This document shows, piece after piece, positions 1,253-12,005 of a stretch of 64,000 nucleotides of DNA. This stretch comes from Phycisphaerales bacterium. GTDB lineage: Bacteria > Planctomycetota > Phycisphaerae > Tepidisphaerales > Tepidisphaeraceae. The stretch spans positions 62,001 through 126,000 of the forward strand of contig JADLBV010000007.1 of assembly GCA_020847545.1 (NCBI GenBank). The letters run 5' to 3'. A program made the position numbers and the translations under genes. Each line of letters starts with the position of its first letter. Position 1 is the stretch's first letter. The notes under the pieces are model-generated. The model saw only the letters and a list, made by a program, of their open reading frames with translations, was not told where the DNA came from and did not search any database.

Positions 1253-2918
1253 GGTTCAACTGCTCCTTTGCGTGATGGAGCGGCAACAATATGACAAATG
1301 TCGATCCCGCTCCCACCCGGCTGTGCGCGGTGATGGTTCCCCCGTGTCGCTCGACAATCTTTCGACAAACCGCCAACCCGATGCCGGTCCCTTCGTATTC
1401 CCCCCGGCCGTGCAACCGCTGAAAAACCGTGAAAATGCGATCCAGAGATTTCTCATCAAACCCGATGCCATTGTCCTCAACCGACAATTCGCACTGGGTC
1501 TGGCCATTGACCGCGTGACGTGCAAAAACCCGCACACGGGCCGGCTCATCCGGTTTGTGAAACTTCAGCGCGTTGCTGATGAGGTTCTGCAACAATTGCC
1601 GGATTTGCATCGGATCGGCATCGATGGTGGGGAGCGGTTCGATGTTCACCGTGCCGTGGGATTGTTCGATGCGGGCCTCCAGATCGTCCACCACTTCATG
1701 GGCGACGACCGACAAGTCGGTCGGTACAAACGGCTGCGCCCGCGTGGTGATGCGCGAGAAGGCCAGCAGGTCGGTGATCAGGTTCTGCATCCGACCGGCC
1801 GCGTTCTGCATCCGATCGAGATAATCGCAACTTTCAGGGCCAAGATCGCCCGCCGACCGGGTGCGCAATCGGTCCCCGAAAGCGAGTATTTTGCGCAACG
1901 GTTCCTGAAGATCGTGCGACGCCACCGATGCGAAATCCTGCAACTCACGGTTGCTCTGTTCCAGTTGGATCGCAGCCTCCTGCAGCTTCGTCTCCACCAT
2001 TTGCCGACGGAGAATCTCATCTTCCAGTGCGAGATTGGTCTGTTGGGTATGGAGCGTTTGCCGACGGGCAGTCTGTGCCAGATGAACAATCAACGCCAGC
2101 AGGATGGACATCCCCACACCGCACGCCAGCACGACTTCGGGAAGAAAACTGTGTTCATTTTTGAGCAATTCCCGGCCGGGCCAGACACGGATGTTCCAAT
2201 CCAGGTCATAGGCGTTGATATTCTGCTGTTGCGCCCATCGGCTTTCTATCGAAGGGTCGGCCGGCGCGCTGCGATAAATTTCCTGACCTTCATGCCAGAC
2301 ACTGACGTTGTAACCCGCCAGGTTGATGTTCTTCAGGATCGAGTCCAACAACTCCGCCGTTCTAAACGCCCCCACCAGGTATCCCCCCACCGCTCCATCC
2401 TCTCCATACAACGGCCAGATCGCCAAAAATCCGCGCCCACCCTGCGCCAGTTGCGTGGGATCTGTCACCGCCATCTTTCGGGATTGCCGGGCCTCTGTCA
2501 TGGCCTCCCGGCGTTCTTCCCTGGAATTCATGTCAAACCCAATCGCCTCTTCGTTCCCTTTTTCAGGAACCGCCAGCCGGATGACACCCTGGGCGTCGGC
2601 CCATTCGATCGCCTGATACCCGCCAAAATGCGCATAAATCGCCCGTACATCCTCCTTCCATTCATCGGGACCGCGCTGCACCTCACGGTGGGTTCGATAC
2701 GACAACCGATCCAACGCGCGCAGCCGGGCCTCCATGCGGGCGAGCAATTCATTGCGGACAGCGTCGGTCTCCAGCACGACATGCTGACGGATGCCCTGCC
2801 GTTCGTTGTGTGCCAACGCCACCCACAAAACGATCGTGATCACAATGCCCGCCGCCGCGATCAACACCGGCTTCATCGACCGGTTGGCTTTGAGTTTTTC
2901 AATCAGGAAATTACCCAT
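1215..2918 (-). CDS. CHASE-domain membrane sensor histidine kinase
   Basis: Sensor kinase of 567 residues. N-terminal membrane segment at about residues 17-36, an extracytoplasmic CHASE-like domain (about 40-250, with IEWADAQGVIRLAVP and a conserved FLAIWPLY stretch), a second membrane helix at about 262-282, a coiled coil (300-330), then the dimerisation H-box ASHDLQEPLRKI and the ATPase motifs NLISNALKF (N), DNGIGFD (G1), FTVFQRLH (F) and GTGIGLAV (G2). The H-box resembles phytochrome-type kinases, in line with the Rcp1-like regulator that overlaps its end. CHASE domains bind small organic ligands in other systems; the ligand here is unknown. First gene of the operon. Confidence 0.88.
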   Translation of the reverse strand: MGNFLIEKLKANRSMKPVLIAAAGIVITIVLWVALAHNERQGIRQHVVLETDAVRNELLARMEARLRALDRLSYRTHREVQRGPDEWKEDVRAIYAHFGGYQAIEWADAQGVIRLAVPEKGNEEAIGFDMNSREERREAMTEARQSRKMAVTDPTQLAQGGRGFLAIWPLYGEDGAVGGYLVGAFRTAELLDSILKNINLAGYNVSVWHEGQEIYRSAPADPSIESRWAQQQNINAYDLDWNIRVWPGRELLKNEHSFLPEVVLACGVGMSILLALIVHLAQTARRQTLHTQQTNLALEDEILRRQMVETKLQEAAIQLEQSNRELQDFASVASHDLQEPLRKILAFGDRLRTRSAGDLGPESCDYLDRMQNAAGRMQNLITDLLAFSRITTRAQPFVPTDLSVVAHEVVDDLEARIEQSHGTVNIEPLPTIDADPMQIRQLLQNLISNALKFHKPDEPARVRVFARHAVNGQTQCELSVEDNGIGFDEKSLDRIFTVFQRLHGRGEYEGTGIGLAVCRKIVERHGGTITAHSRVGAGSTFVILLPLHHAKEQLNHDSQADHDIAGG

Positions 2919-3059
2919 AACCGCCGAACGTCAAATCCTCCCGCCCATCCGCGATCAACATAACAGTGGCCACAACTTTCAGGCAACGTGAACAATTTTC
3001 GACAAAATCCCCCTTGTGGCATTCTGATGGGAAACAATGAAATCTTGATTACCCCAAAT

Positions 3060-6000
3060 TCACGGGCGGACCTGCCCATGAGCGCCGGTAATCTGAAGAT
3101 TCTGAGTCTGGGTATCAAACCAAAGCTCATCAAACCCGCCGCGTGATAACCCCTGGCCATCAAGCAATTCACCCCGCTGGTTGGCATCCCCCGCCGCGTG
3201 CAAAAGATGCCTGGCGGCATCAAACTCAACCATGGCGGCACGGCATTCGATCCCTTCGGTTTTGAAATAGATCGAACCCTGGGCACGGACCGATTTCATT
3301 TGCAGTTGCGCCGACTCCTCGGCCATGGGAACCGTCGCCGGCGCACTGGTCGATGAAGGGGTGAAAAAGACCGCCACCTCGTCGGCCGACATTTCGCGGC
3401 GGCGGGTGGGGTCATTCGCCGGCTCCTGAACAATATGAACTGCGCCAACCAACCGGGCCTGATGTTCTTTGGGATTAAAGGTGAACTGCTTTTGCCATTG
3501 AACCGCCGTCATGCCGCGAAAATCTTCCGCATCGGGTGAAAGCGGCTCGGCCGGGCGGCTGGTGCTGGTGGCGGGGCGATGATCCTCGGCCAACATCCGC
3601 CCCGGACCGGGAACCGTAAAAACGTCGCTGGTGGCATAATATTCCGCGGCCTCGGTGTGCAAATTCATGCCGCGAAGAACTTTCCCATCGGCCAACAATT
3701 CGGATTTAATTTCCACATCCCCCAGCAACTCAATAAATTGCAATGACTTGCGCCCCATCACATCAAGCTGTGAAGGATTCGTGGCCGGCAGACTTGCAGG
3801 CGCGGCCGCAACGTCGGCCAGATGAAGCCTGATTCGACCGGCCGACGCCGAACGAATCGAACCATCCGGCCCGGGCGAGGAAATATTCACCTTGCCAGTG
3901 GCTTCGCCAAGATTGATCTGGCCATCAATATAAGCCCCTTCGGACCACGAAATGTCCGCCGACTGAGGCGGTGATGATCCCTTGGCGGGCTGATGGGAAT
4001 GAATTTCGCCCGCACCTCGAATGTAAAATTTCTGCTGTTGCGGAAGCACCTCAATCAAAGGCCCGCTGATGTCACTACCCTGGCTGGTGATTTTCGCTAA
4101 AGGCTGCCCCAGTAATAGGATACGTTGATCCGGGCCGCTTCCCAATACTCGAATCTGATCGGCCGAGGCTGTCGCCCCATCCGCGGAGTTGACCCGCACC
4201 TTGTCCTGGGCGAGCAGCTCACCAATGGTTACTGAAGGCATCTCATCACTTTGGGTGGTCGTCGTCGGTTGTGTGGTGGGCAAAAGGGTCACTTCAACAT
4301 GGCCGGCGGCGAGTGTTCGCTCGGCACTGATCGCCTGAACCTGCCCATCGGCACGGATCGTCCGTGGATAAAATCGACCACCCTCGGCCGTCGCGGCCAA
4401 CACATCCAGCTTCTGGGCGCGAAGCGTCTGCTCTCCCTGCGATCCGGACAACACACAATAAACATTGCCGGTGGCCAAAACCCGCTGAAGCTGTATGGCA
4501 TTGGGATCGGCCGGGCGGGTGGAGGATGTCTCACCCGGTGCCATGGTCAATTCCAGCGCATCGGATTTCAGTTTCAACTCAGGTGCCTGCACATCGACTT
4601 TCCCCAGAAGCTTGGCGGATTGAATCACCAGCGCATCTCCGCCGGCCGGGTCAAACTGGAGCGCGCACGATTCATTCCAACTCGCGATGATCGATTGTTG
4701 ATCCTTTTGACTTGGGTTGCGAAGCTGCGCGCTGCCGGCCCCGCTGAGGATGGCGCGATGTTGCAGGCGATCAAGCTCCAGCCGTTGGGCGCGGATGGTG
4801 CTGCCCCGCGCATCCTGAAGCACAACGGGAGTATCGCCAAATTGTTCAAGCGTGATGGTCTGGCCGGCGGTCTGATATTGCAGGCTGGCGCATTCGATCC
4901 GCCCGGTCTCCTGTTGCAGATGGACCGGCGAGCCAAAGAGTCGAACGATGGCCTGTCCGGGTGGAGGAGCCGGGCTGGTCTGTTCCGGCAAAGGTTCAAC
5001 ACGCAGCGGGCCGGTCCAATAGACCGTGATGGGGGCTTGATTCATCGAAGCCGGTGAAGTTGTGGCAACGGTCGTAGGGGCCGATGCCGGAGTCACAGTG
5101 GTGGGCGAGGCTTGAGTTGTTGCCGGCGATGCTGTTTCACCCTGCTTGGGCAGAAAATCAATTTCCAGTCGATCGCCGGTGGCGAGGGGTTTTTCATTCT
5201 GCGTGATGCGGACCGAATCGTGAAAAATCGCACGATAAACCGGTTGGGCCGGCCTGCTTGCCGGTCGGGTCTGGGGTGATGCGGGCAGTGCATCCGCAAT
5301 CGCCGCGTTGTCCGCGGCGGCCAGCGCATATCGCATCGCGGGCAATGTCCGCCCAACCGAATCGGCCGGCATATTGGCCCTGGCGATCGGTGAGATCATC
5401 TTGCCTGGATTTTTGAGGATCAGTTTTTCACCATGCGCGATTTCCAGCAATTCCAGCCGGCCGCGCAGTTCGTTCCATCGGATGACCAACCCCCGGCCGG
5501 AAAATTCGTAATCCACACCATACACCCGCACCGGAACCTGATCAGCCTCAACCAACTTGTGGCTTTGTTCCTCGCGATACGCCTCGGTGTAGATGCGGAA
5601 AGTCTGCATGTCGAAGGCGACGTTGTTCAACTCCACCGTGAGCGTCGGCGAAGTCGCATCCAGCGCGGGATAGAGGGCGATGCTGACCTGATGCAGCTCA
5701 CCCCGCTTGGGAGGCGCCATGGGGCCGGAGAGGGCCATTGAATTGTCCGGCGTGTCGGAAGGATCCATCGCGATCACGCCCGTTTCGCCGGTCAACCAGA
5801 TGTATTGGCCGTGGGGCAGATAAATTTTCGCCTGCGGCTTTTCAACGCGGATAGTGCTGTCGGGTTGCGGATCATATCGCTGGGCGAAAAATTCGCTGGC
5901 CAGATCGCCGACGCTGTTGAAGGATTTCACCCAACCCCGCTGCCCGGAGCCAAGCACACCCAATGTCTGGCGGGTCGTCGCGGCCGGCCCTGCGGTCGAT

Positions 6001-9748: not shown

Positions 9749-10183
9749 ATGGCCGAGCAGGAAGCATCAACCATCGCCCAACCCGCGGGCGTCAAAGTCA
9801 ACTACACCTGGGGCACCGGCCGGCGCAAAACCGCCGTCGCCCGCGTGCGAATCGCCCCCGGCAGCGGCAAAATCGAAATCAACGGCCGCACCCTCAACGA
9901 CTATTTCACCAAGGAAGTGGATCGCAAGGCCATCTTCGGCCCCCTCGAAGTCACCAGCACCGGCGGAAAGCTGGACATTCTGGTCAACGCCGACGGCGGC
10001 GGACCCACCGGCCAATCCGGCGCCATCGTCCTGGGCCTGGGCCGTGCGTTGCTGAAATACGACGCCTCCCTCGAATCCGCCCTGCGAGGCTCCGGCTTCC
10101 TGACCCGCGACTCGCGCATGAAGGAACGTAAAAAGTACGGCCAGCGCGGCGCACGCCGACGATTCCAGTTCTCCAAGCGATAA
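9749..10183 (+). CDS. rpsI: 30S ribosomal protein S9
   Basis: Small-subunit head protein whose C-terminal tail reaches the P-site tRNA. 144 residues: a short N-terminal extension, then [56 protein letters not shown] and the conserved basic end [20 protein letters not shown] ribosome binding site precedes the ATG. Last gene of the rplM-rpsI unit. Confidence 0.97.
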
Positions 10184-10209: not shown

Positions 10210-10243
10210 AGCCCATGGACTTCACAGTCCGTGGGCTTTTTTT
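10210..10243 (+). terminator. Rho-independent terminator after rpsI
   Basis: Twelve-base arms 10210-10221 and 10226-10237 (AGCCCATGGACT / AGTCCGTGGGCT, one T-G wobble), a four-base loop, then a run of seven T residues. It ends the ribosomal protein operon 27 bases after the rpsI stop. Confidence 0.9.
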
Positions 10244-10268
10244 ATTGCGACAAAAATTGAATGGAATC

Positions 10269-11279
10269 TTAACCCGCGAGCGATTGTGGTGACGAAGACA
10301 GCGAAATGGCGCTGTCATGGAACACCGACCCGATCGGCCGGATGGAATCCATCAGCACGATAAAATCATCCGCCCGACGTGACAGATGCACCTCGGCCAC
10401 CCGACAGCGGTTCGCCAGCCGCCCGGCGAGTTGCCCGCCGCGTCGATGGGGATGCAATTCCGCCATCGGCCAGTCGCGCTTGAGCGTGGCACCGGCCAGA
10501 ATCGGGGTCAATTCCTGCAACCGGGCACGAGTCCGCCGGCCGGGAACCACCACCAGAATGTTTTCACAATACGCATGATGCCGAATGGAATCCGGATACG
10601 CCCCACCCAAATCCACCCATCGCTCCGATGCACCCGCCCCCGCGATCCGCATTCGCGGCTCATGGGCGCATTCCACCTGACCTGGTACATGCAACAAACT
10701 GAATTTTCCCGCCTCTTCACGGATCGCCGTCCATCGCTGGCCGATGATCTTATACCCCGCCTCTACCAACACCCTTAATTCCGGTTCGATCCCGTACGGC
10801 GTCAGGATCAACGCCCCCCAATCTCCCCGCGCCACCGAAACGCCCGGTATCAGATGCAACCCCTTGCCGCGCATCAGTTGCGCCAGTGGCCAAAAGAACG
10901 CGCCATCCAGACACCGCACCGAATCCACGGTCGGATGGGGCAATATCCAACTGCGAAACTGCCCCCGCAGCATGTTGAGCTGGGTCATCCCCCATCGATC
11001 ATCCAAAATCCAGAAATGCTCCCCCTCCTCATACACTTCCAACAGTTGATCCCCCAGTTGCAGCTCAACCGCCGACGGCGACAACGACCGCGACACCTCG
11101 CCCGCATCATATGGGCGAATCTGCCCGACAATCGGGACAAACCCTTCGGGAAACGACGGCGTTAAAAAGGATTCAAACGTGCGCAAAAACTGCGGCAGCA
11201 ACGCATCGACCCCGCAGGTCAATTCCACCGCCAGACCATGCACCACCAGACGATGAGATTTGGAATCGGCGCTGGTCAA
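10269..11279 (-). CDS. HPr-kinase-like protein with degenerate nucleotide-binding site
   Basis: 336 residues, no signal peptide or membrane segment. The middle part keeps the layout of the HPr kinase/phosphorylase C-terminal domain: GLHLIPGVSVARGDWGALIL stands where HprK relatives have a 'LHAAAVA..GRGVLL' strand, but the P-loop that should follow (GPSGSGKS) reads TPYGIEPE, and the Asp pair that should end the next helix (GDDL) reads GQRW; REEAGKFSLLHVPG then matches the following strand. If this alignment is right, the protein cannot bind ATP in the usual way and is a pseudokinase. The gene stands alone, ending 25 bases from the rpsI terminator. The family call is my inference; the absence of a P-loop is plain in the sequence. 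Confidence 0.55.
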   Translation of the reverse strand: MTSADSKSHRLVVHGLAVELTCGVDALLPQFLRTFESFLTPSFPEGFVPIVGQIRPYDAGEVSRSLSPSAVELQLGDQLLEVYEEGEHFWILDDRWGMTQLNMLRGQFRSWILPHPTVDSVRCLDGAFFWPLAQLMRGKGLHLIPGVSVARGDWGALILTPYGIEPELRVLVEAGYKIIGQRWTAIREEAGKFSLLHVPGQVECAHEPRMRIAGAGASERWVDLGGAYPDSIRHHAYCENILVVVPGRRTRARLQELTPILAGATLKRDWPMAELHPHRRGGQLAGRLANRCRVAEVHLSRRADDFIVLMDSIRPIGSVFHDSAISLSSSPQSLAG

Positions 11280-11438
11280 GTCTGATCTCCTGCAAAGCGG
11301 CGATTGTTCACCATCGGTAAAATGGGAAATTTATTTGAAATTTGGTTCGTCCCATAACCAGCGGCAAGCTGATGCGTTATTTGGAGGCTGACGATTTTCC
11401 CCCTCTTGCATTATATTCTCCGCAGAAAGGAGATCGTC

Positions 11439-12005
11439 ATGAAACGATCAATGATGTGGGTAATGGGGGTTTTGGCAACGATGATGTTTGTTGGGGCCGG
11501 TTGTGCCACCGCGCCGGCTTCTCCGCAGGAGAGACAGGAGTTGCAGCGCGATGCGGATGCGGCGTTGCGCGACATGAAAACCGCCAGCCCGTCCATCGGT
11601 GACATCCTCACCAATGGACACGCCTATGCGATTTTCCCCAGCATCGGCAAGGGTGGCGCGATTGTCGGCGGCGCTTATGGCCGTGGCGTGGTCTATCAGG
11701 GTGGCAAGCTGATCGGCTACAGCGACCTGAGCCAGGGGAGCATCGGCCTGCAACTGGGTGGCCAGACCTTCTCGGAATTGGTCGTCTTCCAGAACGCCGA
11801 TGCACTGGCCAAGTTTAAGCAGGGCAATTACGCCTTCGCGGCCGATGCCTCGGCCGTGGCGCTCAAGAGCGGCGCTTCGGTGGCGGCCGACTACCGCAAC
11901 GGCGTGGCCGTCTTCACCAACCCCATTGGCGGCGCCATGTTCCAAGCCACCGTTGGCGGCCAGGAATTCACCTTCATGGCGGCCGATCAAGTCCAAGGGG
12001 ACTGA
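11439..12005 (+). CDS. SYLF-domain (YSC84-like) lipoprotein
   Basis: 188-residue secreted lipoprotein. A signal peptide ends in the lipobox VGAGC (Cys about residue 22); the rest is a SYLF/YSC84 lipid-binding domain with AYAIFPSIGKGGAIVGGAYGRG, SQGSIGLQLGGQTFSELVVF and AADASAVALKSGASVAADY. Start fixed by the strong AGAAAGGAGA box six bases upstream. SYLF proteins bind phosphoinositides in eukaryotes; the bacterial role is poorly known and probably envelope-related. It is a single-gene unit ended by a terminator. Confidence 0.9.
   Translation: MKRSMMWVMGVLATMMFVGAGCATAPASPQERQELQRDADAALRDMKTASPSIGDILTNGHAYAIFPSIGKGGAIVGGAYGRGVVYQGGKLIGYSDLSQGSIGLQLGGQTFSELVVFQNADALAKFKQGNYAFAADASAVALKSGASVAADYRNGVAVFTNPIGGAMFQATVGGQEFTFMAADQVQGD

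Follow-up and report, generated by a model that had tools for sequence, protein, structure and literature searches.

A putative HprK-related protein without a P-loop, conserved within a family of Phycisphaerales

The window discussed here is a stretch of 64,000 nucleotides from a Phycisphaerales bacterium (assembly GCA_020847545.1, contig JADLBV010000007.1, positions 62,001 to 126,000), and this article is concerned with a single gene on its minus strand. From the sequence alone, a preliminary description had presented the product of this gene as an HPr kinase-like (HprK-like) pseudokinase without a P-loop, whose kept fold, with the catalytic residues lost, suggested a binding or regulatory role. 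The open reading frame (ORF) occupies positions 10272–11279 and encodes 336 residues. It is followed by a stop codon at 10269–10271, which the span first given (10269–11279) takes in, and it opens with a TTG start codon located about 7 bases after an AGGAG sequence. Residues 123–314 (10338–10913, minus strand, as are all the segments of this protein) form the region that can be aligned to P-loop HprK-related kinases. Within this region, the segment TPYGIEPE (residues 160–167; 10779–10802) lies at the Walker A position, and GQRW (residues 180–183; 10731–10742) at the position of the acidic pair. Closer to the N-terminus is the strongly conserved motif DDRWG (residues 93–97; 10989–11003).

The protein search covered 61 genomes, those of the host and its relatives. 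The gene was found in 12 of them, and every carrier belongs to the host's own Phycisphaerales family, a group of uncultured planctomycetes which counts 26 genomes, so that at least 12 orthologs exist. The members are 36–87% identical to the window protein and share 22 invariant columns; Arg248-Arg249 and His14 are also conserved. A profile built from these 12 members, called A1 below, retrieved no additional family member from 298 genomes of the class, nor from 392 genomes drawn from the phylum. Over 336 codons, comparison with the sister ortholog from Phycisphaerales bacterium SJ572 yields 0.078 non-synonymous (dN) and 0.584 synonymous (dS) substitutions per site, and with a dN/dS of 0.133 the gene is therefore under purifying selection. 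Together with orthologs in 12 of 26 family genomes, this ratio rules out a chance or shadow frame, and the ORF can be taken as real. All 12 members are open through the conserved region. In one ortholog (L011), a TGA codon near the 3′-end is followed by a long open frame; either the frame has been damaged recently or the C-terminus is shorter in this member.

To which proteins is this family related? Direct comparison of the window protein, and of the 12-member family, with Pfam, NCBIfam and the sequences of the PDB returned nothing significant. The models for HPr kinase/phosphorylase itself (PF07475 and TIGR00679) match neither the window protein nor any of the 12 members, and TIGR04352 (HprK-related kinase A) is not among the matches listed for either at the NCBIfam cut-off. 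In the class, the sole plausible match of A1 outside the family is a P-loop protein, L041, with an expectation value (E) of 5.3e-4, which is itself weakly matched by PF07475. Chance matches in wrong frames reach 7e-5 in the 392 genomes, and the L041 match is therefore not significant when taken alone. Three other candidates were set aside: L124 and L125 (E 7e-5 and 5e-4), whose frames, judged by eye, look like antisense shadow ORFs, and L042 (E 0.0085), in which no HprK-like ORF is visible by eye.

The relationship emerges when profiles are compared with profiles. The target set was made of proteins from the class that are related to L041 and carry a P-loop, 36 of 38 HprK-like matches being kept once two duplicate or overlapping ORFs had been dropped; the pattern running from the P-loop to the acids matches 33 of these 36, and the remaining three (L054, L055 and L068) show the motif by eye. 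Aligned to these 36 kinases with hhalign, A1 obtains a probability of 91.7, an E of 7.6e-7 and a score of 55.3 over 183 columns, covering residues 123–314. Reversed alignments score 14. The best of 300 column-permuted versions of A1 scores 28.5 and the best of 300 block-permuted versions 30.0, none of the 600 reaching 55.3. When L041 and its closest kin are removed from the targets to avoid circularity, the match persists in the same register (probability 89.9, score 51.7, 249 columns, residues 7–300); the highest of 60 null scores is 25.1. In a further control, all ORFs from the collected loci were clustered into 28 families, 27 of them non-self: the two HprK-like clusters rank first and second among the non-self matches (33.1 and 24.0), an ACT cluster coming a close third (23.3, over 28 columns). 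The bridge to HPr kinase is provided by a 17-member HprK-related set, which matches HPr kinases of the PDB (best E 2.1e-8) and in which 16 of the 17 members match TIGR04352.

Several observations weigh against this assignment. Pfam and NCBIfam are silent on the window protein, and chance matches in wrong frames can exceed that of L041. The hhalign probability falls to 60.9 with a 17-sequence subset of the targets; a 23-sequence group gives 1.7, an 8-sequence group 17.9, and six close relatives including L041 give 15.8. Set directly against a single true HPr kinase, A1 obtains 0.1, with a score of 13.5 that lies inside the null. The weaker matches to smaller target sets indicate that the signal needs a diverse profile. 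Nor was a confident structure obtained: AlphaFold2, run on a two-sequence alignment of the window protein and its SJ572 ortholog, returned a mean predicted local distance difference test (pLDDT) of 29.9 and a predicted template modeling score (pTM) of 0.19, values that speak neither for nor against an HprK fold.

On balance, the profile alignments support homology of the window protein to the HprK-related kinases, and its similarity over the catalytic domain places it in the HprK-related/HPr kinase superfamily. The HprK-like identity first proposed thus holds at the level of the HprK-related A and B group, its nearest relatives, through profile–profile comparison, and not as a direct match to HPr kinase/phosphorylase. 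Like HprK-related kinases A and B (TIGR04352 and TIGR04355), the window protein appears from the alignment to combine an N-terminal module with a C-terminal HprK-like domain, and it is similar to them in length. Unlike them, it lacks the HA histidine, the P-loop and the SDD/SDE acids, its loop is shorter by two residues, and the NCBIfam models do not pick it up. With HPr kinase/phosphorylase (PF07475, TIGR00679; PDB 1ko7 and 1jb1) the link passes through the HprK-related set, and both a direct sequence match and the catalytic residues are missing. The phosphoenolpyruvate carboxykinase (PEPCK)-type P-loop fold is the group in which ECOD places HPr kinase (PMC7758060). If the homology holds, the window protein would share this fold, but it would differ from the fold as outlined there in having Gln-Arg instead.

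The nucleotide site itself was examined by reading the hhalign alignment by eye against L041. The position of the HA histidine of HprK is taken by Pro145, that of the Walker A Lys by Pro166, that of the Walker A Ser/Thr (Thr in L041) by Glu167, and that of the acidic pair by Gln181-Arg182. A Walker A P-loop (GxxxxGK[ST]) occurs in 0 of the 12 members, as does an acid at the acidic-pair site that follows the P-loop helix; this site reads Gln-Arg, save for Gln-Ser and Ser-Arg in one member each. The substitutes are well conserved: Pro145, Pro161, Glu167 and Trp183 are identical in all 12 members, Gln181 and Arg182 in 11. Given this conservation, the former nucleotide site is, as read from these alignments, rebuilt rather than decayed. 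The preliminary description had put TPYGIEPE in the place of the P-loop and GQRW in that of the acidic pair, and both placements are borne out. Its statement that strand order and spacing are kept is right overall, except that in the profile alignment the loop is two residues short of the Walker A loop of the kinases. As a whole, its “pseudokinase without P-loop” stands on sequence evidence, that is, profile homology and site residues replaced in 12 of 12 members.

In the window, the convergent neighbor of the gene (9749–10183, plus strand), named from its sequence, is a gene which we take to be rpsI, encoding ribosomal protein S9; by eye, the segment 9147–10183 is an rplM-rpsI pair. An intrinsic terminator with a 12-bp stem and a T run (10210–10244; z −5.9) separates the two convergent genes. 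On the other side, the divergent neighbor (11406–12005, plus strand) has a weak match to Ysc84 (PF04366), below the cut-off. An rpsI homolog is also found near the gene in genomes G001, G010 and G020, and the rpsI-rplM pair lies downstream of it in 4 of the 12 carriers. The commonest neighbor is a gene encoding a pair of ACT domains. Of the 12 carriers, 6 (G007, G010, G012, G014, G020 and G021) have it directly upstream and in the same orientation, and the G007 copy matches PF19571. In five carriers this gene is elsewhere in the genome, while G005 has weak matches and no close ortholog. It is present at E <1e-50 in 10 of 13 examined family genomes that lack the pseudokinase gene, and is therefore not a dedicated or obligate partner. 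The ACT-pair gene, the pseudokinase gene and the rplM-rpsI pair occur together in G010 and G020, an order that may be ancestral.

Two other possible partners were considered. All 26 family genomes encode HPr, whether they carry the gene or not, and this lack of association sets it aside as a co-evolving partner. The window protein might also have formed a heteromer with an active paralog from its own genome. No confident P-loop HprK-like protein was found in the host genome, and G020 is the single carrier of the 12 in which one appears at E <0.001; it is thus unlikely that the window protein is the inactive half of such a pair.

What, then, might such a protein do? The reading that we consider probable from sequence comparison is that of a full-length HprK-related (HPr kinase/PEPCK-type) protein that would no longer bind nucleotides or transfer phosphate and would have been retained for a non-catalytic role, in binding or regulation. 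The HprK/PEPCK-type fold would be maintained. With Lys and Ser/Thr replaced by Pro166 and Glu167 where the helix begins, phosphate binding would be unlikely. The invariant Glu at the Walker A Ser/Thr site, together with the missing Lys and acids, argues against binding of adenosine triphosphate (ATP). The conserved replacement surface, made of P-F/Y-x-I/L-E-P-E-L and IGQRWTA-x-REE, could bind a protein or a small ligand. The binding or regulatory role proposed at the outset is likewise an inference. A bolder version, which we hold only tentatively, is that of a lineage-specific family in which the HprK-type phosphate site has been rebuilt into another conserved site, the P-loop into PFxxEPEL and the acidic pair into GQRW. 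Its members would keep the HprK/PEPCK fold without a P-loop and would have acquired a new ligand or a new reaction, perhaps tied to amino-acid sensing by ACT domains.

The main rival to a non-catalytic role is that the former active site has become a new one, the HprK scaffold now supporting another reaction catalyzed by Glu167, Trp183, Arg187, Glu188, Arg248, Arg249 and His14. The conservation of polar residues at or near the former site, and likewise of Arg248-Arg249 and His14, exceeds what a binding scaffold strictly needs. However, no conserved metabolic operon accompanies the gene, and its commonest neighbor, the ACT-pair gene, is widespread in the class without the pseudokinase; we regard this alternative as unlikely, if worth keeping in mind. 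It is quite improbable that the fold is unrelated and the profile match fortuitous: the null comparison with one true HPr kinase and the want of a confident structure leave room for this explanation, but the score lies far beyond the permuted nulls and above every other collected family, in a register that holds with and without L041. A little less credible still is continued kinase activity, with ATP bound by a non-canonical loop. In its favor, the scaffold looks intact and every family genome encodes HPr, which could be the substrate, yet Lys, Ser/Thr and both acids are gone in every member, the Ser/Thr position holds an invariant Glu, and HPr occurs whether or not the gene does. Finally, decay of an HprK-related kinase into a pseudogene, as the TGA of L011 and the patchy presence in the family could suggest, is very hard to reconcile with the low dN/dS, the invariant columns retained by such divergent members and frames all open through the conserved region, and is disfavored.

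Only 1 of the 61 genomes contains a protein above the PF07475 cut-off (L043, on contig C50 of G024; E 4e-60), which is probably a true HPr kinase, and at E 1e-20 the count is 0 of 119; true HPr kinase thus looks rare in the phylum. In one genome of the class, L041 carries two tandem HprK-related ORFs on the minus strand (1267–2319 and 2316–3206), which overlap by a few bases and differ in their loops, GRGGVNKT versus ARGGTGKT. A second tandem pair (L046 and L050, on contig C74 of G057) has GRGGVFKT in its second gene, Phe replacing the usual Gly before Lys.

Pseudokinases are well known in the eukaryotic-like protein kinase fold. In a literature search over titles and the openings of abstracts, no paper was found on an HprK-type pseudokinase or on a P-loop-free HprK-related family; the papers listed include one on phosphorelay regulation and one on GlmR. 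If the present reading is true, a conserved HprK relative devoid of a P-loop would make it possible to test directly which function this fold serves after losing nucleotide binding. The phylum in question seems to have few true HPr kinases, although all 26 genomes of the family encode HPr.
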